Shown here: positions 7,534 to 25,118 of the stretch, piece by piece | How the letters are laid out: each line of letters starts with the position of its first letter | Position numbering within the stretch: position 1 is the stretch's first letter | Assembly: GCF_000814765.1 (NCBI RefSeq) | Contig: NZ_JWIC01000004.1 | Coordinates: forward strand, 310,001 to 374,000 | Direction: 5' to 3' | Length of the DNA: 64,000 nt | DNA from: Pseudoalteromonas luteoviolacea | GTDB lineage: Bacteria > Pseudomonadota > Gammaproteobacteria > Enterobacterales > Alteromonadaceae | Translations under genes and position numbers: made by a program | The notes under the pieces: model-generated | Told to the model about the DNA's origin: nothing | Database searches by the model: none | What the model saw: only the letters and a program-made list of their open reading frames with translations

Positions 7534-8802
7534 ATGGATATCATTGCTTCTCATGGCTCGATGTTAGTACTCATCGCAGCGGCAGTTGGTTTCTTTATGG
7601 CTTATGGTATTGGTGCAAACGATGTTGCAAACGCCATGGGTACTTCAGTGGGGTCAAAAGCCCTTACAATCAAGCAGGCAATCATCATTGCGATGATTTT
7701 TGAGTTCGCAGGTGCTTACCTTGCGGGCGGTGAAGTAACGTCGACGATCCGCAAAGGGATCATTGATGCAGCCCCGTTTGCTGACATCCCTGAATTAATG
7801 GTGTTAGGTATGATCTCGGCACTATTTGCTGCAGGTACTTGGTTGCTGTTAGCGTCAGCATTGGGCTGGCCGGTATCTACGACGCATTCAATCATTGGTG
7901 CGATTATCGGCTTTGCGTTGGTGGCTGTAGGTAGCGAAGCTATCCAGTGGGGCAAAGTAGCTGGCATCGTAGGTAGCTGGGTTGTAACGCCTGCAATCTC
8001 AGGCTTCATTGCATACCTTATCTTTATGAGTGCACAGAAGCTGATTTTTGATACTGATAAACCGCTCACTAACGCAAAGCGTTTTGTGCCTTTCTACATG
8101 GGTCTAGCCGGCTTTGTCATGTCTTTGGTGACTATCAAAAAAGGCTTGAAGCACATTGGTATTAACTTAGGTACTTTTGAAGGTTATGCACTTGCAATTG
8201 GTATCGCTGTGTTGATTGGCTTAATTGGTAAAGTGTTTATTGCACGCATGAAAATGGATCCAAATGCCGATAAGCAAATGCAATTTAATAATGTTGAAAA
8301 AGTGTTTGCCGTATTAATGGTTCTAACAGCGTGTTGTATGGCGTTTGCACATGGTTCAAATGACGTAGCCAATGCGATTGGTCCACTAGCTGCGGTTGTA
8401 AATATTGTAGAAAACAACGGTGAGATGGCGAAAAAAGCTGAGCTTGCATGGTGGATTTTACCGCTGGGTGGTTTAGGTATCGTTGTTGGTCTTGCGGTAT
8501 TAGGTAAAAAAGTAATTAAAACTATTGGTGAAGGTATCACGCATTTAACACCAAGCCGTGGTTTTGCAGCTGAGCTTGCGGCGGCCTCGACGGTAGTTAT
8601 TGCGTCTGGTACTGGTTTGCCTATTTCAACGACACAAACATTGGTAGGTGCCGTTTTAGGTGTGGGTATGGCCCGTGGTATCGCGGCACTTAATATGGGT
8701 GTGATCAGAAACATTGTGGTTTCTTGGGTAATCACATTGCCAGTCGGCGCAGCCCTTGCTATTGTTATATTCTATATTTTAAGAAGCGTGTTCGGCGTTT
8801 AG
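7534..8802 (+). CDS. Low-affinity inorganic phosphate transporter, Pit family
   Basis: This 422-residue inner-membrane protein imports phosphate, probably as a metal-phosphate or cation-coupled complex. The two inverted family repeats show as GANDVANAMGTSVGSKALT near 28 and HGSNDVANAIGPLAAV near 273, each in a helical bundle; about 10-11 membrane segments are visible. A cytoplasmic loop lies near 235-250. It pairs with the DUF47 gene upstream. With Pst just before it, the locus encodes both high- and low-affinity uptake. AAAGG precedes the ATG by 7 bases. The cation (Na+ or H+) cannot be told from sequence. Confidence 0.93.
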   Translation: MDIIASHGSMLVLIAAAVGFFMAYGIGANDVANAMGTSVGSKALTIKQAIIIAMIFEFAGAYLAGGEVTSTIRKGIIDAAPFADIPELMVLGMISALFAAGTWLLLASALGWPVSTTHSIIGAIIGFALVAVGSEAIQWGKVAGIVGSWVVTPAISGFIAYLIFMSAQKLIFDTDKPLTNAKRFVPFYMGLAGFVMSLVTIKKGLKHIGINLGTFEGYALAIGIAVLIGLIGKVFIARMKMDPNADKQMQFNNVEKVFAVLMVLTACCMAFAHGSNDVANAIGPLAAVVNIVENNGEMAKKAELAWWILPLGGLGIVVGLAVLGKKVIKTIGEGITHLTPSRGFAAELAAASTVVIASGTGLPISTTQTLVGAVLGVGMARGIAALNMGVIRNIVVSWVITLPVGAALAIVIFYILRSVFGV

Positions 8803-8824
8803 TAAAAATCAGACTTTTAGCTTG

Positions 8825-8860
8825 AAAAGATCTCAGCATCATTGGTGTTGGGGTCTTTTT
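8825..8860 (+). terminator. Intrinsic terminator of the Pit gene
   Basis: 8829-8841 can pair with 8843-8855 (about 12 pairs, several of them G-U), flanked by AAAA before and TTTTT after. The T-run ends five bases before the ATG assigned to oxyR. Confidence 0.7.
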
Positions 8861-8864
8861 ATTT

Positions 8865-9782
8865 ATGGGTTTATTAGTGAATAACTTACCAAGTATAAAA
8901 CAATTACAATACCTAATTGCAGTGCATCAGCAGCAGCACTTTGGTCGAGCGGCAGAGGCGTGCTTTGTTGGCCAGTCGACGTTAAGTAGTGCGATTCAAA
9001 ATTTAGAAGAAACACTTGGCTGCCAGTTAATTGAGCGAGAAAATCGCAGTCTCATGTTTACGGATGTGGGTGAAGAAGTTGTCGCGCGAGCGAAGAAAAT
9101 CATTGATGATTCAATTAGCGTTGTTGAGTTAACGAAAAGTTTTAAAAACCCATTGTCTGGCAAGCTTGTACTGGGGTTAATCCCGACGATTGCGAGCTTT
9201 ATTGCTGCGCCCTTGTACCAGTACTGCCAAGAGGTTTTCCCAAACCTTCAACTCGTATTGGTTGAGGATACCAGTGATAGGCTACTCGATAAGTTGGAGC
9301 ATGGCCATATTGATATGGGCATATTGGCGCTGCCATACAGAACAGATAAGTTTCATACGCAGATTTTAACCAAAGACCATTTCTCATTGGTTCACCATGA
9401 AGACTATGCTATCCCTGAAGTATTAGAGGACTTTAATTTGCTGCCTAAAGACAGTGTATTTTTGCTCGAGCGCGAACACTGTATGACAGGGCATGCACTG
9501 AGCGCATGTAACCTGACTCGCAGTGAGTGTATTAATCCATTTGAGGCTGCGAATTTACACACGTTACTTAGCATGGTTGAATATCAGAATGGGGTGACTT
9601 TTCTACCTCAGATGGCACTCAATGCAGGTATCTTAGATGGAAAGCCTATGGTGACTTTGTCGCCTCAAGCGAATGCTTATAGAGAAATAGGCTTGCTATG
9701 GCGCAAAACCACTGGGCGAATACGAGACTTCAGGTTATTTAGTAACGAGGTTGGAGAGTTCATTAAAAAGCAGTGCCAATAG
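8865..9782 (+). CDS. oxyR: Hydrogen-peroxide-sensing LysR-type activator OxyR
   Basis: OxyR is a LysR-type regulator that activates catalase and peroxidase genes when peroxide forms an intramolecular disulfide. The N-terminal helix-turn-helix shows as HFGRAAEACFVGQSTLSSAIQNLE. The redox pair appears as HCMTGHALSAC, two cysteines nine residues apart as in E. coli Cys199/Cys208, near residues 206 and 215. The 305-residue length is right. The start is uncertain: ATG 8865 lies just behind the upstream terminator with no good ribosome site at normal distance, and GTG 8877 is an alternative with GGG upstream. An intrinsic terminator overlaps the stop codon. Confidence 0.9.
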   Translation: MGLLVNNLPSIKQLQYLIAVHQQQHFGRAAEACFVGQSTLSSAIQNLEETLGCQLIERENRSLMFTDVGEEVVARAKKIIDDSISVVELTKSFKNPLSGKLVLGLIPTIASFIAAPLYQYCQEVFPNLQLVLVEDTSDRLLDKLEHGHIDMGILALPYRTDKFHTQILTKDHFSLVHHEDYAIPEVLEDFNLLPKDSVFLLEREHCMTGHALSACNLTRSECINPFEAANLHTLLSMVEYQNGVTFLPQMALNAGILDGKPMVTLSPQANAYREIGLLWRKTTGRIRDFRLFSNEVGEFIKKQCQ

Positions 9783-9793
9783 CACTGCTTTTG
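9765..9793 (+). terminator. Intrinsic terminator overlapping the oxyR stop
   Basis: GCAGTGC (9770-9776) pairs with GCACTGC (9782-9788) around CAATA, with AAAA before and TTTT after. The TAG stop is inside the hairpin. The A/T flanks mean it could also work for the convergent gene at 9813. Confidence 0.85.
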
Positions 9794-9812
9794 AGTAGCA
9801 TGAAATCATTGC

Positions 9813-10010
9813 TTAAGTCGAACTGAGCTTGCTCTGTGACATAAGATTGGGTAGAAATAATAAGTATACCCACACCACTAAGTTGAAATACGGTACAAAC
9901 CCTAATACTGTAAACAGCTTAGTTGGATACCCTTTTTGTTTGGCGCAGCGGTAGCATTGTAATGTGATTAAACAATGTACCATTGATAGAAACAGAATAA
10001 ACTGAAACAT
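9813..10010 (-). CDS. Small two-helix membrane protein, unknown
   Basis: A 65-residue hydrophobic protein is read from an ATG at 10010, preceded by a strong ribosome site GGGGAG six bases upstream on the minus strand. An upstream in-frame ATG at 10031 would add seven residues and lacks such a site. Two membrane segments are visible, about 3-20 (FQFILFLSMVHCLITLQCY) and 32-53, with a basic linker CAKQKGYPTK between. No family was recognised. It converges on oxyR; there is no clear functional link. The strong ribosome site makes it a credible gene. Confidence 0.6.
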   Translation of the reverse strand: MFQFILFLSMVHCLITLQCYRCAKQKGYPTKLFTVLGFVPYFNLVVWVYLLFLPNLMSQSKLSST

Positions 10011-10163
10011 ACTTATCTCCCCGAATTCCATTACGAGATGTACTCAAATCCATTGTATGTCTTCTACTTATAAGCATATAAGTAAAAAAAGAAGACATTC
10101 ACTTCGAAGTTTTATTATAGTTGAGTTTTTAGTCGACTGCAGCGACTTTTTTCCCCATTTGGA

Positions 10164-12671
10164 TTAGCATGCTGTTTTTAGGGATAAAATAGTTTTTAAT
10201 TGATTTTTTAATTGCTCAATTGGAAGCGGCTTAGAGATGAAATACCCTTGTCCATAGTCGACGCCTATTCTTTGAAGCTCATCAAAAATTTCTTTACTTT
10301 CAACATACTCTGCCACAGAGCATTTGTCTAAAGAGTGGCTAATATCGTTGACCGCTTTTACTAGCGCAAGATCAATTGGGTCGTTGAGCATATCTCGGAC
10401 AAAGGAGCCATCTATCTTTACATGCTGAGCTGGCAATTGTTTAAGATAGCTAAATGTACTAAAACCGGTGCCAAAATCATCAATAGAAAAATGACACCCC
10501 AGCTGATTAAGCTGTGTAATCATCGCTTGCGTGGCACTTAAATTGTTGATGCTTGCAGATTCTGTGATCTCGAAAATAATGCAGTGTGCTGGAACTTGAA
10601 AATCGCGCAGGCAAGTTTGGATATGTGGCATCAGTCGCTCATCTAGAAATGACTGGGCCGACAAGTTTACTGATATCTGATGTAGCTCTGGGTGTTTAGA
10701 TACCGCACGGATACTTTCTTTGATGACGGACTGATCCATTAAAAAAGTATCATTAAGTAATTCCAAGGCAGGAATAAACTGATTTGGATATATGATTTTA
10801 TCATCAATGACTAGGCGAAGCAGCGCTTCAAAATAAGCGATTTGGCTGTTTTTAAAGTCCCAGATAGGTTGATAGTGAAGTTCAAATTGATTGTTTTTCA
10901 GCGCTTCTCGAACGCTGTGTCCCCATTCTAACCCTGTCTGTAAGGTGCTGTTTTTAGCATCTTCTTTGGTGTAGCAATGAACGAGGTTTCGGCCTAGGTT
11001 TTTTGCTATGTACAATGCGATGTCCGATTGTTTCAAGCATTCATTCGGGTCGCAATTCACTGCTGATATAAGGGTTAAGCCAATCGAGCAGCTAATTGTA
11101 TAACTGGCTTCCTCAGAGTGAAACTGGTGGTTTTCAATCGCACTACAAATGCTCTCGGCCATCATATGGGCATCGAGCAAGCGGGTGTGCTTGAGTAAAA
11201 TAGCAAACTCATCCCCGCCAATTCTAAATATCAGGTGCTCTTGTGAAATATGTGCTCTAAATAGCTGTGCAACTTCTTGCAGGACAATGTCACCTTGTTG
11301 ATGGCCTTTACTGTCATTAATGATTTTAAAGTGGTCTAAATCGATATAAATCAGCGCATGTTCGGTATCGAGGTTGTGCTTGGCTTCTTTACAAAAGAGG
11401 TTAAGCTGCTGATCAAAATAATAACGGTTATGCAGGCCTGTCAGAGTGTCATGTAACGCTAAGTGTCGCAATTGTAATTCGGCTTCTTTACGCTCATGTA
11501 TGTTGTCAATCGTCGCCGTGATCGACGCATTATTCGTTTGATTTTTTATGAGCTGAAAACGGCACTCAACCCAAATAGAAGTACCTGAATGATGACTCAG
11601 CTGGAGCTCGACTGTTGAAGCATGTGATCCATTGAGTACATCCTCTATGGCTGTATGCAAACTGGTTAAGTAATCGGGATGCACATAGTCACACAGTTGG
11701 GTTGCAAGTGTGGATTTGAGCTTATGACCTGTTAATTGTTCCCATGCAGGATTAATAAAACGAATACAGCCCACAGCATCCAGTTCTAGTACAACGGTAT
11801 TTAAATGCAGTAAAATACGCTGGTGTGCAGAGAAAAGCTCTTTGTAACTCTGTTCTCTTCGACTTAGCTGCTCCACTTTATTAGCAAACTCAGCGTAGCT
11901 GACCATAAAGTCTTCACGCCTCGCGGCATGGTCACACACCTTACTCAATAGCGATAAATTATAAGGGGCGCGAATAAAATCTGTGACCCCCAGTAGTAAG
12001 AGTTGCTCGGCGTAATCAGCGTTTCGATTGTCGATTATTGTTACGATAGCTTGGCTTGGTTTGTGTTGAAGTATGTTTGCAACGAGTTCTTTAGTTGTTT
12101 CTGCACGCGTAGATGTTGCGTCCAGTAAGACGATGGAGTAATCGTTTTGTAAAAACTCGGAGAGCGCTGCATTTTCCGTCGAAACAGTATTGCAGCTGAA
12201 GCTCAAAGCAAGATGATCGCTAATATCGTCTGCTTTTTTCCCATTTGGCTCCAACAGCAGTAAATTAAGGCGGCTGCTTTTTTCCAAATGTGTCGATAAA
12301 ACATTGGCCAAGACCTGAGGCAATACATCATGTCTTTCTAGCGGCAGCACGGCATCAATACTGTAACTTCGCGCGGTAGTTTCCGCAATGCGCTCACAGT
12401 ATGTCGGTGGGATCAATACAATAGGGGTGTTTTTTGGGGTTTTTAATAGCCCTGAACGGATCATGCGAGAAAACCGCCAGCCATCTATTTTCCCCACATT
12501 GAGACCACTAATGACTAAGTCAACGGCGCGTTGTTTTAATAACTGCAGGGCTTCTTGTGTATCACTGAGTTCTATTATTTGAAATACATTGAGCTTTTGT
12601 AACGTTCTTATTACGGTTTGACGCTCACCATGATCGGCATTGACAAGTAATAAAGTAAGCTGTTTAGCCAT
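10164..12671 (-). CDS. REC-REC-PAS-GGDEF-EAL c-di-GMP signalling protein
   Basis: This 835-residue soluble protein has two receiver-like domains (about 5-125 and 133-250), a PAS domain (about 280-395), a GGDEF domain with intact RIGGDEF, and a C-terminal EAL domain with FEALLR and DDFGTGFSTF. Such proteins make and/or degrade the second messenger c-di-GMP. The first receiver has Gly at residue 56 where the phospho-accepting Asp is expected (DLVISGLNVGKIDG), so it probably cannot be phosphorylated; the second keeps an Asp in IVLLDAT. Both catalytic halves look intact, so the net direction is unknown. It is monocistronic and divergent from queA. No cognate kinase gene is adjacent. Confidence 0.88.
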   Translation of the reverse strand: MAKQLTLLLVNADHGERQTVIRTLQKLNVFQIIELSDTQEALQLLKQRAVDLVISGLNVGKIDGWRFSRMIRSGLLKTPKNTPIVLIPPTYCERIAETTARSYSIDAVLPLERHDVLPQVLANVLSTHLEKSSRLNLLLLEPNGKKADDISDHLALSFSCNTVSTENAALSEFLQNDYSIVLLDATSTRAETTKELVANILQHKPSQAIVTIIDNRNADYAEQLLLLGVTDFIRAPYNLSLLSKVCDHAARREDFMVSYAEFANKVEQLSRREQSYKELFSAHQRILLHLNTVVLELDAVGCIRFINPAWEQLTGHKLKSTLATQLCDYVHPDYLTSLHTAIEDVLNGSHASTVELQLSHHSGTSIWVECRFQLIKNQTNNASITATIDNIHERKEAELQLRHLALHDTLTGLHNRYYFDQQLNLFCKEAKHNLDTEHALIYIDLDHFKIINDSKGHQQGDIVLQEVAQLFRAHISQEHLIFRIGGDEFAILLKHTRLLDAHMMAESICSAIENHQFHSEEASYTISCSIGLTLISAVNCDPNECLKQSDIALYIAKNLGRNLVHCYTKEDAKNSTLQTGLEWGHSVREALKNNQFELHYQPIWDFKNSQIAYFEALLRLVIDDKIIYPNQFIPALELLNDTFLMDQSVIKESIRAVSKHPELHQISVNLSAQSFLDERLMPHIQTCLRDFQVPAHCIIFEITESASINNLSATQAMITQLNQLGCHFSIDDFGTGFSTFSYLKQLPAQHVKIDGSFVRDMLNDPIDLALVKAVNDISHSLDKCSVAEYVESKEIFDELQRIGVDYGQGYFISKPLPIEQLKNQLKTILSLKTAC

Positions 12672-12940
12672 GGTGTTACGACCCCAAACCCATGTTTTAA
12701 GTATTTAGATAGTGCACATTCATCGTTATTTGCATGTTTTATATTGCTTTTTACTCAATATACCTGAAGAGCAAGTTTTGCATTTAAAAGAATGAATACA
12801 AGCAAAGTAGCCAGTAGAGTAAAGCTATTTAGCACCGCTGACAAGAGGTGAAAAAGTATGAATAGATCAAGCTTGTTGCTTGATTTCATTATCTCGCAGC
12901 ACTAGACTTGCCGCCTAATTGCACGAATATGAGGTCTTAT

Positions 12941-13975
12941 ATGCGCGTTGCTGACTTTAATTTTGAACTTCCTGATGAATTGATCGCCCGCCACCCCAAA
13001 GCGGAGCGTTCGAGTAGCCGCCTTTTAACATTGAATGGCACTAATGGTGATTTAGAGCATAAAGTATTTAAGGATATTATTGATCTGATTGAACCTGAAG
13101 ATTTGATCATTTTTAATAATACCAAGGTTATTCCAGCTCGCATGTTTGGTCAGAAGTCAACGGGCGGTAAAGTTGAAGTCTTGGTCGAGCGTATTTTAGA
13201 TGAACACCGTGTACTTGCACATGTGCGTTCAAGTAAGTCACCAAAGCCAGGTGCCGAATTGATCCTTGAAGACAAAGCACAAGCAACCATGGTTGCACGC
13301 CACGGCGAATTGTTTGAATTAGCGTTTAAAGGTGAGCACTCGGTATTGAGTATTTTGGACGAAATTGGCCACATGCCATTGCCGCCTTATATCGATCGCC
13401 CAGATGAAGAGGGTGATAAAGAGCGTTATCAGACCGTGTATGGAGAAAAGCCAGGCGCGGTAGCGGCACCAACAGCGGGCCTGCACTTTGACGATGCACT
13501 TATGGCTCAGCTCAAAGACAAAGGCGTTGAAATGGCCTTTGTGACCTTACATGTTGGTGCTGGTACTTTTCAGCCAGTCCGTGTTGATGATGTGAATGAT
13601 CATCACATGCACTCTGAATATATCGAGGTACCTGATGAAGTTGTGGATGCTGTGACTAAGTGTAAGCAACGTGGAGGCCGTGTTATCGCGGTTGGTACAA
13701 CGTCGGTCCGCTCTTTAGAGTCTGCTGCAAAGGTTCACGGTGGAGAGTTAAAGACTTTCTATGGTGATACGGACATTTTTATTTATCCGGGTTATCAGTT
13801 TAATGTTGTTGATGTGATGATCACCAACTTCCATTTACCTGAGTCAACATTAATTATGCTTGTGAGTGCCTTTTCAGGGCAAGCACACATCATGAACGCT
13901 TACCATGAAGCAATTGAGCAGAAGTATCGCTTCTTTAGTTATGGCGATGCAATGTTTTTAACTAAAAAACAGTAA
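12941..13975 (+). CDS. queA: S-adenosylmethionine:tRNA ribosyltransferase-isomerase QueA
   Basis: QueA converts preQ1-modified tRNA to epoxyqueuosine tRNA using the ribosyl part of SAM. The start is ATG 12941 ([19 protein letters not shown]), with GAGG six bases upstream; the frame is open further upstream but lacks family similarity there. The 344-residue length is normal. Family motifs include [19 protein letters not shown]-like [12 protein letters not shown] and [10 protein letters not shown]. It heads the queA-tgt-yajC-secDF order known from E. coli, although a terminator follows it. A short inverted repeat (ATCAAGC/GCTTGAT, 12866-12884) lies in the upstream region. Confidence 0.96.
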
Positions 13976-13987
13976 TATAGAATTTTA

Positions 13988-14013
13988 AGACCGGCTAAAT
14001 GCCGGTTTTTTTA
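13988..14013 (+). terminator. Intrinsic terminator after queA
   Basis: ACCGGC (13990-13995) pairs with GCCGGT (14001-14006) around a TAAAT loop, followed by seven T residues. It separates queA from tgt, which may then have its own promoter in 14014-14179. Confidence 0.85.
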
Positions 14014-14041
14014 TATTTACACTCAACTTTTTTGATTGTGA

Positions 14042-15310
<1,269 letters not shown>

Positions 15311-15342
15311 ACTTTTTTATAAAAATTAAATGAGGAAAAGCA

Positions 15343-15681
15343 ATGAGCTTATTTATATCTAGCGCCCATGCAAGTACAGCGGCAGCCGCACCAGCAGGTG
15401 GCGGTATGGAAATGCTTATCATGTTGGCTATTTTCGGTTTGGTATTTTATTTCTTAATTTACCGCCCGCAAGCTAAGCGTGTTAAAGAGCATAAAGACCT
15501 AATGGGTGCACTTGGCAAAGGCGATGAGATCCTTACGTCAGGTGGTCTAGTGGGTAAAGTTTCGAAGGTTGCTGAAGACAAAGATTTCGTGGTAATTGCC
15601 TTGAATGATCAAGTTGAAGTAACAGTACAGAAGTCAGCAGTGGCAGCAGTTTTACCTAAAGGTACAATGAAGTCGCTATAA
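15343..15681 (+). CDS. yajC: Sec translocon accessory protein YajC
   Basis: YajC is a small membrane protein of the SecDF-YajC complex, which helps drive protein export. The 112-residue protein has one membrane helix (about 24-43, MLIMLAIFGLVFYFLIYRPQ) followed by the conserved cytoplasmic domain with RPQAKRVKEHKDLMGALGKGDEI split over residues 42-66. GAGG precedes the ATG. It lies between tgt and secD, 21 bases before the latter, as in E. coli. Confidence 0.96.
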   Translation: MSLFISSAHASTAAAAPAGGGMEMLIMLAIFGLVFYFLIYRPQAKRVKEHKDLMGALGKGDEILTSGGLVGKVSKVAEDKDFVVIALNDQVEVTVQKSAVAAVLPKGTMKSL

Positions 15682-15702
15682 CAATAACAAAGGGATAATC
15701 CA

Positions 15703-17562
15703 GTGCTAAACAAGTATCCAATGTGGAAATACTTGCTTGTGCTCGCTGTTTTGGCCGTTGGCATTCTTTATGCCACCCCTAATATGTATGGTCGGGATCC
15801 GGCCATACAGATTTCAGGTAAGAAAGGGGCCAGCGCCGATTTAAGCGTGCTTGATCAAGCAAATAAAACACTTCAAGACAATAATCTACCTATCAAATCT
15901 GCTGTCCTAGAAGAAGGGCAGGTTCTCATTCGCTTCAAGAATGTAGAAGATCAGCTTAAAGCACAGGATATCCTGCGTGGCTCACTGAGCGAAGACTACA
16001 TTTCTGCTATTAACATGTCTCCAGCACAACCGGATTGGCTCAAGAGCATTGGTGCAAACCCAATGAAGTTGGGTCTGGATCTCAGTGGTGGTGTTCACTT
16101 CACAATGGAAGTTGACATGGCGACGGCAATGGAAAAAGCGCTTGAGCAGATGGAACAAGATTACAAGAGCGACTTGCGTGGTGAGAAGTTGCGTTATCGT
16201 TCTATTCGTCAAGTTGCCAATAGTGAGCGCATTCAGGTGGTGATGCGCTCTGTGGAAGACAAAAAAGCCGCTGAGCGCTTTTTGAAAAAGCGTTACCCTG
16301 GCAATGTGTTTATCAACGACAGCAGTAATGAACTCGCATTCTATTCAAGTTTAAGTGACTTGAAGCAGCGTGAATTACGTGATTATGCTATCAAGCAGAA
16401 TGAAACCATTATTCGTAATCGTATCAACCAGTTAGGTGTTGCTGAGCCAAATGTACAAAGACAGGGTGCTGAGCGCATCATCGTACAATTACCTGGTGTA
16501 CAAGACACGGCGCGCGCAAAAGAAATTTTAGGTGCAACCGCGACACTGGAGTTCCGTGAAGTGGACGATAAAGCGGATTCACGCGCAGCGTCGCAAGGCC
16601 GTATACCTGCGGGCAGTGAAGTGCTGTATCACAAAGACGGTTACCCTGTTGTATTGAAAAAGCGTATTATCTTATCTGGCTCGCACATAACCGGTGCACA
16701 ATCGGGTATGGATGAATATCAACGCCCGCAAGTAAGTATTAATCTTGACAGCAAAGGTGGCGCTAAGATGAGTGCCTTTACCAAACGCGCGGTTGGTAAG
16801 AGCATGGCAACGGTATTTATTGAATACAAGCCGTCTGGCAAAGTCGATGAGAATGGCAAAGCGCTACCACCTATCAAGGTGGAAGAAGTCATTAACGTCG
16901 CGACAATTCAGTCTCGTTTGAACAACTCATTCCGTATTACTGGCATTGATAATCCGGCTGAAGCACATAACCTGAGCTTATTGCTAAGAGCTGGTGCATT
17001 GGTTGCGCCTATTCAAATTGTGGAAGAGCGCACGGTCGGTCCAAGCTTGGGTCAAGAAAATATCGAAGCGGGTATGACTGCGGTGGTACTAGGCTTCGCA
17101 TTTGTGCTTGGTTTCATGCTGATGTACTACAAGGGCTTTGGCATTGTTGCGAACCTAGCGCTTGCGGCCAACTTGGTGATGATTGTTGGTGTAATGTCGA
17201 TGATCAGCGGCGCGACGCTGACCCTACCTGGTATTGCGGGTATTGTATTAACCGTAGGTATGGCGGTTGACGCAAACGTACTTATCTTTGAACGTATCCG
17301 TGAAGAACTCGCTGATGGCAGAAGCCCTCAACAAGCGGTTCATTATGGTTATGACAGTGCATTCAGTACAATTTTTGATGCGAACATTACAACACTCATT
17401 GCAGCGGTTATCTTGTTCTCGGTCGGCACAGGCCCGATTGCTGGCTTTGCTGTAACCCTTGCGATCGGTATTTTAACCTCAATGTTTACTGCGATCATTG
17501 GTACACGTGCCGTGATCAACGCGTTCATTGGCGGTAAACGCATCAACAAACTGTCGATATAG
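15703..17562 (+). CDS. secD: Protein translocase subunit SecD
   Basis: SecD is an inner-membrane protein that uses the proton gradient to pull exported proteins through SecYEG. The 619-residue protein starts with GTG (AAGGG upstream). A first helix at about 7-26 is followed by the large periplasmic region with [16 protein letters not shown] near 123, then five C-terminal helices from about 450 with [16 protein letters not shown] near 524. Length matches E. coli SecD (615). It is 8 bases before secF and co-transcribed with yajC. Confidence 0.97.
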
Positions 17563-22195: not shown

Positions 22196-22810
22196 TTAGC
22201 GTCTGATTGAAGGCACTTTAAAGTCGTAAGCTTCTTTATAAGTTAGGAAAGTAAGGACGACTAACACACCACAGAATATTGAATAGTTTAAGTATCCTGT
22301 TACATCAAATGCATAATAGAAAAAGGTCATGTCATACCCTTTACCGTTGCGTATATAGTTCTCAATCAGTGCGAAAAAGCTCATTGCAGCGCTAATTAGG
22401 CATAGCCAAGGCAAAATGCTATCTGCGAACGTGTACTTAATTTTATGTTTTGGAAATAATCGCTTAGAGATCTCTACTCGATATGTGAGAGGGACTAAAA
22501 TGATCAGCTCTTTGAGTAAATGAACACCATAAATTAAACTATTTTGGATCAAGCGATCTCCAGGTGTTGAAACTAAGCTAATCAATCCGGTAGTAAAAAT
22601 AATGTTTTCAAATAACACGGGGATCATAGCAATAAATGCAATGGAACATATATTGACATCCCTTAGTCTGTGCCCAATCAAAAATACTAATGAAATAATG
22701 GAAATGTAGGCTAGAAAAAAGAAATAAGTCGCGTCTTGGATTATAAAGATCACCACTACCATTACTACATATGGTAGTAGTAAATCTTTGAATGCAAACT
22801 GTTTTGCCAT
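22196..22810 (-). CDS. Six-helix membrane protein next to a GG-motif peptide, unknown
   Basis: The 204-residue protein has about six hydrophobic segments, near 9-31, 33-47, 54-80, 87-110, 131-153 and 166-192. No family was recognised. It starts 25 bases after the stop of the 51-residue GG-motif gene on the same strand and has only a weak ribosome site of its own, so the two are probably co-transcribed. Candidate roles are immunity, export or processing of the small peptide, all inference. A positive cluster at the end of the fourth segment (RVEISKRLFPKHKIK) suggests a cytoplasmic loop. No terminator was seen in the 6 bases between it and the convergent binding-protein gene. Confidence 0.7.
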   Translation of the reverse strand: MAKQFAFKDLLLPYVVMVVVIFIIQDATYFFFLAYISIISLVFLIGHRLRDVNICSIAFIAMIPVLFENIIFTTGLISLVSTPGDRLIQNSLIYGVHLLKELIILVPLTYRVEISKRLFPKHKIKYTFADSILPWLCLISAAMSFFALIENYIRNGKGYDMTFFYYAFDVTGYLNYSIFCGVLVVLTFLTYKEAYDFKVPSIRR

Positions 22811-22835
22811 AAATAATGCTTATTTTAGAAACAAA

Positions 22836-22991
22836 TTAAGATCTTTGTTCGGGCTTTACTTGCCCTGAACTGGAGTTTGCAACAAGCATGCTTTGTTGGG
22901 ACTTTCTCCCTACTGAAAAAGGGTCCGCTGGACCTAATAAACCTGAACCGCCTGTAATTAAACGGCATTGTTTGTTAGCAATCATCTTCAT
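22836..22991 (-). CDS. Small peptide with double-glycine leader-like motif
   Basis: A 51-codon reading frame on the minus strand begins MKMIANKQCRLITGG and continues SGLLGPADPFSVGRKSQQ to a Ser-rich, charged tail. AAGGAT lies seven bases before the ATG, a good ribosome site. The N-terminal 15 residues resemble GG-type leader peptides of bacteriocin or peptide precursors: a short polar and hydrophobic helix ending in Gly-Gly at 14-15, leaving a 36-residue remainder. The remainder has no Cys, so no disulfide or lanthionine rings; several Ser but only one Thr in total. It is followed by the six-helix membrane protein gene. Function is inferred from motif and neighbourhood only; no C39 transporter gene is nearby. 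Confidence 0.6.
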   Translation of the reverse strand: MKMIANKQCRLITGGSGLLGPADPFSVGRKSQQSMLVANSSSGQVKPEQRS

Positions 22992-23263
22992 AGTGATTAT
23001 CCTTATTTCATTATCGTCTAGTCAGCTAAATGAATGTCAGACATTCTCATATTTCCAATGGCAAAAGGCACAACGCATCGCCTTAACTGCTTTACCAGAA
23101 GGAAGTGTCGCCAGAATAATTAAAAAGAACCAACTTCAATGTATTTTCTCGTACTTTACGGTAGTTTTTATATGGCTGACTCAATGAATTTAACACCAAA
23201 TAATTTAGAGTTAAACATTTTTTTACAAAAAAATAAGATGCTAAATTCAGGCCAATTTGTGAA
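22992..23263. other. Intergenic region with no recognised gene
   Basis: Between the GG-motif peptide (reading left) and the terminator of the chemoreceptor gene there are about 270 AT-rich bases. They must contain the peptide promoter, but no clear -35/-10 pair stands out. Short frames here lack ribosome sites or run into the terminator. Confidence 0.5.
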
Positions 23264-23311
23264 AAAAATTACCCAAAATAGAAAAGGGTAAGTGTCCCTA
23301 TTCTATTTTGG
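23264..23311 (-). terminator. Intrinsic terminator of the chemoreceptor gene
   Basis: CCAAAATAGAA (23273-23283) pairs with TTCTATTTTGG (23301-23311), extended by AGGG/CCCT across one mismatch, with a 7-base loop. On the minus strand the stem is followed by AATTTTTTT. It lies 29 bases beyond the chemoreceptor stop. Confidence 0.85.
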
Positions 23312-23339: not shown

Positions 23340-24971
23340 TTAAAGCTTAAATTTAGCCATTTCACTTTCTAACTGGGCTGCTTGCGCCTTAATGCTGTCA
23401 GTTGCGGTATGAGTTTGCTGCGATACACTGGCTGTTTGAGATGCAGTATCCGATATAATCACAACTCTTTTTGCTGTATCTTCCCCAGCAGTTAATTGCT
23501 CTTTTGCTGCGAGGGCGATTTGGTCACTCATCTGCGAAATCGCACTTAATGACGTGGCGACACTACGCAGAGCCTCACTGGCTTCATTTGACATGGTTAC
23601 TGTTTTTTCGCTGGTTGCAATGCTCAATGAAACGGAGGATTTCGCTTCTTGGGTCGCCGCTTGCAAGTTACCTATCATCGTATGAATTTCTTCAGTACTT
23701 GATTGTGTCCGCTGAGCCAACTGACGGACTTCGTCGGCAACGACGGCAAAACCTCGGCCTTGTTCACCTGCTCGGGCTGCTTCTATTGCTGCATTGAGTG
23801 CAAGTAAATTAGTTTGCTCAGCAATGCTTTGTATGACACTCAGCACATTAGCAATGTTATTCACCTCTTCATCTAATGCTTGAATATTATTGCCAGCACT
23901 GTCAATCTGCTGCTCCAGTAGGGCAATTGCCTCACTTGCATTGGATGTCAGCCTATCGGCATTTTGACCTTGGTTCTCAGCTTCTTGCACAGAGAAAGCA
24001 GCTTGCTCGGCATGTTCAACTACTGTTTGAGCAGAGGCGGTGAGTTCTGTGATAGCCGAAGCCACCATCTGTGTTTCTTCACTTAGGCTTAACGTTAAGC
24101 TTTCCAAGTCATTTGAGCGGGCCTCGCCATCATAGCTTTGCTCTTTTAATTTATCGCTAACAGTCATCAAACCACTTACAACCCCTTTTAAGCCATCTTG
24201 CATGTAGTGCATCGCGGCCATAATGCTGTAGTCTTTAGCATTTGAGGTATCAATGCGTGACGTGAGATTGCCATGTGAGACGTGTCTAACGATATCCAGT
24301 ACATCATTGAGCTCTGCACCGAGCTTATTTGAGAGTGATAGACCGTATCGCGTTACCGTGAAGGTCAGTGCAACTGCGATAAAAAGAGAGAAGGTTAATA
24401 ACCAACTAGCTGTTTCCCAGTATCTTTCATCGACTTCTTTGTAACTGATCCCCGTACCGACATACCAGCCAAATAAAGATGTTTTTTGCACCACGGAGGT
24501 TAGGTCAACAACTTCACCATTTCTTTCTGAGTTCCAATGATAAGTAATGATGCGATTGGTTTTGTTACCCACTTTGCGCTCGACTAATCTTCCAATGCTG
24601 TTTCCTTGAGCATCTTTGAAGTCGTTGAAGCTTGTGCCGTGTAGTTGTGGATCATGAGGAGCGGCGACAAAGTTTAACTGCTCATCGACCACGTAGACAT
24701 ATTCAGAGTCATGGTATTTGTTTTCTCGAAGGATCTGGGCTGCTAACTTTTTAGCGTCGGCTTCGGATAAATCCCCAGCTTTCACAAATTGTTCAAACTG
24801 TTCGACGATATTTACCGTACTTTTCATTAGCTGGTTGATACGCGCAATATTATCTGTTTCACTGGCGTGGCGCAGTGATTGAAGCCCGAGCACCGCAACG
24901 GAAATTAAGGCGATAAAAATTGCTACTGCAAAAAATATAATTTTTAATCTTAGAGTCAGAGTCGAAAACAC
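23340..24971 (-). CDS. Methyl-accepting chemotaxis protein with Cache sensor
   Basis: This receptor of about 543 residues reports ligands to the flagellar chemotaxis system. An N-terminal helix (about 9-30) and a second helix near 190-208 bracket a periplasmic single Cache domain, with [19 protein letters not shown] and [20 protein letters not shown]-like region follows. The signalling domain has the highly conserved tip with [17 protein letters not shown]-type sequence (residues about 386-402) and [19 protein letters not shown] 24971 is chosen because AAGGTG lies six bases upstream; GTG 24980 would add three residues. Cache sensors usually bind small organic acids or amines; the ligand is unknown. 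No C-terminal CheR-docking pentapeptide is seen. Confidence 0.93.
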
Positions 24972-25118
24972 AATATGCACCTTAGCAGAGTCAGTTAAAA
25001 GTTTATGGCACTCTTACCTTTATGATTTATCATGTTTGAGCGCGCTATGTAAGTAGGGCTTAACCGTATATAAGTAAAAATTAGATGATTTTTCCTCATA
25101 TGACGACCCTACCACGAC

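Follow-up and report, generated by a model that had tools for sequence, protein, structure and literature searches.

A double-glycine leader peptide gene paired with a six-helix membrane protein gene in Pseudoalteromonas: a candidate peptide signal and receptor

In the streptococcal CSP and BIP systems, which work with ComAB and BlpAB, the signal and its receptor are encoded together, as the sections of PMC7595303 on these pheromones describe. Among Gram-negative bacteria, HetC of Nostoc is a C39 exporter that has been suggested to export a signalling peptide, and the account of it in PMC10986499 states that its substrate is still to be identified. The relevant part of the same source holds that Gram-negative C39 exporters probably do more than export toxins and that evidence for this is absent. 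Here we describe a gene pair of Pseudoalteromonas luteoviolacea, lying in a 64,000-nucleotide stretch of DNA that was analysed as a whole (the window), in which, unlike the case of HetC, a candidate substrate and a membrane partner are encoded together.

We put at roughly 60% the probability that one gene of the pair encodes a secreted peptide signal and the other its receptor in the inner membrane. A C39-peptidase ABC transporter would cut the 51-residue precursor after Gly-Gly and export the mature peptide, and the exporter would be the only C39 transporter found in the genome, which lies beside glmU and has an HlyD partner. On the periplasmic side, the mature peptide would then act on the six-helix protein by way of its first ~11 residues (SGLLGPADPFS), with the PxxP front as the part that is recognised. 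In related cassettes the signal may reach DNA through an XRE-type helix-turn-helix (HTH) protein, either neighbouring the six-helix domain or fused to it. Cleavage, export, binding and the direction of signalling are proposals, whereas the genes, their constraint and linkage, the HTH fusions and the co-distribution of the exporter are observed directly.

The precursor gene occupies positions 22991..22836 on the minus strand, has 51 codons with an ATG start and translates as MKMIANKQCRLITGGSGLLGPADPFSVGRKSQQSMLVANSSSGQVKPEQRS. Its ribosome site, AAGGA (23000..23004, minus), stands 8 nt before the ATG and is kept in the upstream alignment. The leader, residues 1-15 (MKMIANKQCRLITGG; 22947..22991, minus), ends in GG, one of the three endings (GG, GA or GS) that define a C39 (PCAT)-exported peptide, and the predicted C39 cut falls after this GG, so that the precursor reads MKMIANKQCRLITGG and then, beyond the cut, SGLLGPADPF.... 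A 51-codon frame with a good ribosome site and a double-glycine leader, as given in the preliminary description, was thus borne out. The leader ends in GG in all 12 of the closest genomes and in GG or AG across 30 homologous loci, AG lying outside the three endings.

Constraint is unevenly spread along the precursor. In the 12 closest genomes the leader had a pN of 0.049 and a pS of 0.186 (dN/dS 0.24); the core, residues 16-26 (22914..22946, minus), was unchanged in 12/12 (pN 0.000, pS 0.146); and the tail, residues 27-51 (22839..22913, minus), diverged rapidly and varied in length (pN 0.436, pS 0.557, dN/dS 0.64). As pS is low in the front half of the gene (0.17, against 0.56 in the tail), constraint at the level of codons or RNA may contribute too. 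A terminator-like hairpin within the core-coding stretch (22934-22922) was dropped as a candidate, being missing in some relatives. Among 44 cassette precursors, hand-picked from search outputs with near-duplicates omitted and with two that the regular expression could not parse scored as misses, a Cys stands at -7 relative to the cut in 37, a Pro falls within the first 10 positions of the core in 41, and 26 show a PxxP within its first 16. All 16 window-clade peptides in this set carry PxxP, which in the cores of the window branch is usually preceded by hydrophobic residues.

The membrane protein gene (22810..22196, minus) begins 25 nt past the peptide stop and encodes 204 amino acids. The AlphaFold2 model, from a 26-sequence alignment, has six long helices (mean pLDDT 84.2, pTM 0.75). 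There is no Pfam or NCBIfam match at E≤1, the profile matched no PDB sequence, and Pfam found no HTH domain in the window protein, whereas homologues have one. The frame has no clear ribosome site of its own and in 7/30 homologous loci the peptide and membrane frames share a 4-nt overlap; the two are perhaps translated jointly. The description of a six-helix gene 25 nt on, with no recognised family and a weak ribosome site, therefore stands.

Only F72, G95, R111 and E150 are invariant among the 26 aligned rows. Foldseek against the PDB gave a best E of 0.19, uninformative on family, and this absence of a match does not amount to a new fold; the best VIA-align Z of 9.9 was equally uninformative, its rows being designed bundles, ion-channel helices and similar. 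Comparison with AgrB- and CPBP-like proteases yielded no Pfam match, the same four invariant residues and the same uninformative fold searches. Mean net charge by segment is +1.3 at the N terminus, then -0.6, +0.7 and -1.2, then +3.6 in loop 108-129, +0.7, and +0.7 at the C terminus, the most positive being the N terminus and loop 108-129. This pattern suits a cytoplasmic N terminus, and as a fused N-terminal HTH requires just that placement, the two are compatible. Loop 5, expected to be periplasmic, equals the C terminus in positive charge and fits the topology poorly. The conserved stretch near the third loop would be periplasmic. An HTH-fused six-helix homologue gave a predicted model with a pLDDT of 75.5.

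The pairing of peptide and membrane protein exceeds chance. A leader peptide frame with a ribosome site lies directly upstream in 30/30 of the best membrane-protein homologues (L031-L060), against 0/148 control genes by a strict filter (small frame, ribosome site, a leader fitting C..[VILF].[GASC][GASN], directly upstream) and 7/148 with a broader motif and distance window; the controls, frames of at least 180 amino acids taken from the window and from 21 exporter-region loci, include many orthologues and so are not independent. This supports the proposed layout of a GG-leader peptide with a dedicated membrane protein, and the two are kept as a pair. A further 46 stand-alone six-helix genes came from 45 further loci, the first copy in L063 being also counted among the best 30. 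An upstream peptide was found in 27 of them by the strict filter and in 33 by the strict or the broad one, and reading 13 filter misses by eye added nine, making 42/46. The peptide is missing before the genes of L061, L070 and L142 and the second copy in L063 (1913-2536), which directly follows the first. Of the outcomes that the preliminary description had named as counting against the pair, namely no homologous peptide, a broken frame or a membrane protein widespread without the peptide, none occurred in the 30 best loci, though these 4/46 further genes lack the peptide.

Peptide homologues were found by BLAST in 12/108 genomes of the genus (E<1e-9) and membrane protein homologues, frequently multicopy, in 44/108 (E≤0.01), a BLAST count that misses diverged cassettes recognised by the profile (for example in G039). 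In the 30 best loci this gap between 12 and 44 reflects diverged peptide cores, not missing peptides. Ten loci at 91-98% identity have named sources: eight strains of P. luteoviolacea and two Pseudoalteromonas sp. When 12 BLAST-negative genomes of the genus, which include the six that carry the exporter described below, were searched with the profile, one gave a partial match (G070). In an order-wide sample of 394 genomes from 114 genera, which holds few members of Pseudoalteromonas, four genomes matched, three of them Pseudoalteromonas; the fourth match (E 9.4e-4), with two stops within a 41-codon frame, was set aside as chance. Judged by these sequence matches, credible membrane proteins appear restricted to Pseudoalteromonas within this sample.

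The pair belongs to a larger family of cassettes. We fetched 40 paralogue loci and read 11 loci from searches, of which five were counted and six omitted: L150 and L156 repeat L061 and L062, L157 and L160 are without a full six-helix gene, and L118 and L129 are remnants. The recurring order is an HTH gene (~85 amino acids), a GG peptide and a six-helix gene, often followed by HTH-six-helix fusions of ~250-295 amino acids. In the five proteins scanned, the fused HTHs fall into two Pfam groups, HTH_19/HTH_3 and HTH_26, and PADLOC gave weak HTH matches only, both on an HTH-fused homologue. An upstream peptide is found before 1/31 HTH-fused genes by the strict filter and before 2/31 by the strict or the broad one. 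As XRE-type HTH domains accompany relatives of the membrane protein, whether through linkage or through fusion, sensing and regulation are indicated.

Several cassettes depart from the simple order. L130-L135 hold arrays of two to four fusion genes behind at least one GG peptide and one stand-alone six-helix gene, with four fusions in tandem in L130 and L134. In L155 (1752-2234), three consecutive GG peptides, with cores SMWKPNHPH, SIWKPTYPE and SVYRPNRPH, lie between one HTH and one six-helix gene, and in L079, L139 and L154 a single frame has two GG modules. The own genome has an HTH-six-helix pair without a peptide on contig C5, an HTH-peptide-six-helix cassette on C7 and, on C8 near 141795 (L118), a remnant with a peptide frame containing VVGASVYRPNQPH and a six-helix fragment with a stop. 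A cassette-like HTH frame (40% identity) also lies on C4 at 379035-379259 (L160), ~5 kb past the window end; a six-helix gene or a clear peptide was not seen in the 3.2-kb stretch.

A tree built from 101 domain rows, several joins of which involve long branches, gives the window clade of 36 rows a support of 100/100, and the label 'fused, first kind' requires at least five changes by the starred branches. A simple regular expression found no HTH linked to the 36 window-clade rows. The HTH query was likewise unmatched at 1e-6 in G028 and G107, where BLAST found the window branch only, and G018 and G039, with one BLAST match each, have further diverged HTH cassettes. With no linked HTH there, the case for signalling is weakest for the window branch itself. 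We are evenly balanced on the wider picture, in which the genus would hold fast-diversifying exported peptide signals, read by new six-helix receptors that act on or are fused to XRE-type domains, with the window pair as an HTH-less branch that perhaps signals in trans or damps the response.

No C39 gene lies beside the pair, as the preliminary description noted; its suggestion of an orphan did not hold, as the pair belongs to the cassette family and a C39 exporter is encoded elsewhere in the genome. The sole C39 match of the genome, which thus has both a GG peptide and a C39 transporter, is a 709-residue protein with Peptidase_C39, ABC_membrane and ABC_tran domains, on a contig other than the window's and in the order glmU-HlyD-C39-LanC-LanB. 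Both glmU and HlyD adjoin the exporter in 19/19 fetched loci of this type. Exporters with 78% or more identity to it are present in 50/107 genomes: in 44/44 with the membrane protein (at least 81% identity) against 6/63 without (Fisher p 7e-24, uncorrected for ancestry). This co-distribution is no more than suggestive, confounded as it is by ancestry and by the lanthipeptide locus, and may mirror one clade. That class I lanthipeptide locus, together with precursor-like frames ~5 kb upstream that have GGG leaders and are rich in CTTTSK repeats, lies on C8 of the own genome (L090:3085-3670 and 8196-16163). A weak, split Lant_dehydr_N match is found on the same contig at 127215-129023, in an 824-codon frame separate from the LanB gene.

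The surroundings of the pair may also bear on its expression. An 84-nt block upstream (23178..23261, minus) is near-invariant in 12/12 close genomes, in an alignment judged by eye, and holds TTTAAC...GTTAAA, while the flanking sequence diverges; it is a probable promoter or operator region. By eye the block bears a possible likeness to a sigma-54 promoter, which is missing in the L044 group. The inverted repeat GAATGT-CTG-ACATTC (23032..23046, minus) stands before the peptide start, as read from the sequence and the upstream alignment. The upstream gene (23340-24980) encodes a chemoreceptor (sCache_2 and MCPsignal), and 3' of it a hairpin with a T run (23273..23311, minus), seen by eye and not reported by the terminator scan, means that the pair may form a separate transcript. 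The convergent gene downstream encodes an SBP_bac_3-like protein, slightly below the family cut-off. We set the chemoreceptor aside as a functional partner: matches passing E 1e-180 occur in 79/107 genomes, many of them without the pair, so the adjacency probably reflects old gene order.

The same genes might instead encode an antimicrobial peptide and its immunity protein, a microcin-like toxin acting against kin and a six-helix protector, with the HTH-fused relatives as regulators derived from immunity proteins. In form the 204-residue neighbour does match the confirmed immunity proteins of class II microcins, which the part of PMC9746304 devoted to them describes as 51-216 residues long, encoded near the peptide, mostly in the inner membrane and associated with a C39 exporter, and peptide and partner each diversify across the genus. 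We nevertheless consider this unlikely, for the cores of the chosen precursors are short (16-36 residues) and of negative GRAVY in 40/42 parsed, constraint in the mature part is limited to ~11 residues, the window peptide has no Pfam or NCBIfam match at E≤1 and so no match to a bacteriocin family, and the six-helix family is tied to HTH domains. The earlier suggestion of a secreted or signalling peptide with immunity or export therefore holds for the GG peptide and its partner, but immunity or export is less supported as the partner's role and the HTH links indicate sensing.

The exporter neighbourhood raises another explanation, that the pair serves the class I lanthipeptide locus as an accessory and its peptide is modified by that pathway or induces it. 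LanB (PF04738) is present in 43/44 genomes with the membrane protein against 8/63 without, and the own exporter directly precedes LanC and LanB. However, the core of the window peptide has 0 Cys, the peptide gene and the locus are on different contigs, and G028 has the peptide, the membrane protein and the exporter but no LanB match, which makes such a role distinctly improbable. An inducer of the pathway would itself be a signal, so this explanation overlaps with the one that we prefer. The lack of a clear ribosome site for the membrane frame, which follows or overlaps the small one, could also mean that the latter is only a cis-acting leader that couples or regulates translation of a membrane protein with a transport or other role. 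We give this very little credence: constraint acts at the amino-acid level, the GG leader persists despite differing cores, and some cassettes have three peptides, or two GG modules per frame, before one membrane gene.

Among the top-ranked matches in the open-access literature we found no description of the six-helix family, its restriction to the genus or its linkage to GG peptides and HTH domains; GG peptides and membrane-bound regulators are themselves known kinds. As the candidate signal, partner, HTH regulators and candidate exporter are defined genes in marine bacteria available from culture collections, the question of what Gram-negative C39 exporters do beyond toxin export is directly testable, and the varied cassettes would supply a naturally occurring set of peptide-receptor pairs with which to study specificity.

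Placed beside known systems, the pair shares with class II microcins (as treated in the corresponding part of PMC9746304) a GG leader, a C39 exporter with HlyD in the genome and an adjoining small membrane protein. It differs in having no adjacent exporter, a short and hydrophilic core and HTH-linked relatives; class II microcin clusters contain the C39 transporter and HlyD, which here are both on another contig. It also falls outside the class I lanthipeptides, with LanB and LanC on that other contig and no Cys in the core. The HTH-fused relatives, like ToxR, TcpP and CadC as presented in the relevant passages of PMC10269533 and PMC5430869, join DNA-binding and membrane parts, but place a six-helix domain behind an XRE-type HTH, and the window protein itself carries no HTH. 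In its main text, PMC10269533 nowhere uses the terms Xre, ligand or multi-pass.

With the streptococcal GG pheromones the pair has in common a short precursor with a GG leader, for which processing and export by a C39 transporter are expected, and a signal encoded together with a candidate receptor (as in the pheromone sections of PMC7595303). It differs in its Gram-negative host, its unlinked exporter and a six-helix candidate receptor of no recognised family, and neither immediate neighbour, the chemoreceptor nor the SBP_bac_3-like protein, is a histidine kinase or response regulator. If the wider picture of six-helix receptors acting on or fused to XRE-type domains is correct, peptide pheromones would here be read by a one-component system, in contrast to the kinase-based systems of Gram-positive bacteria.
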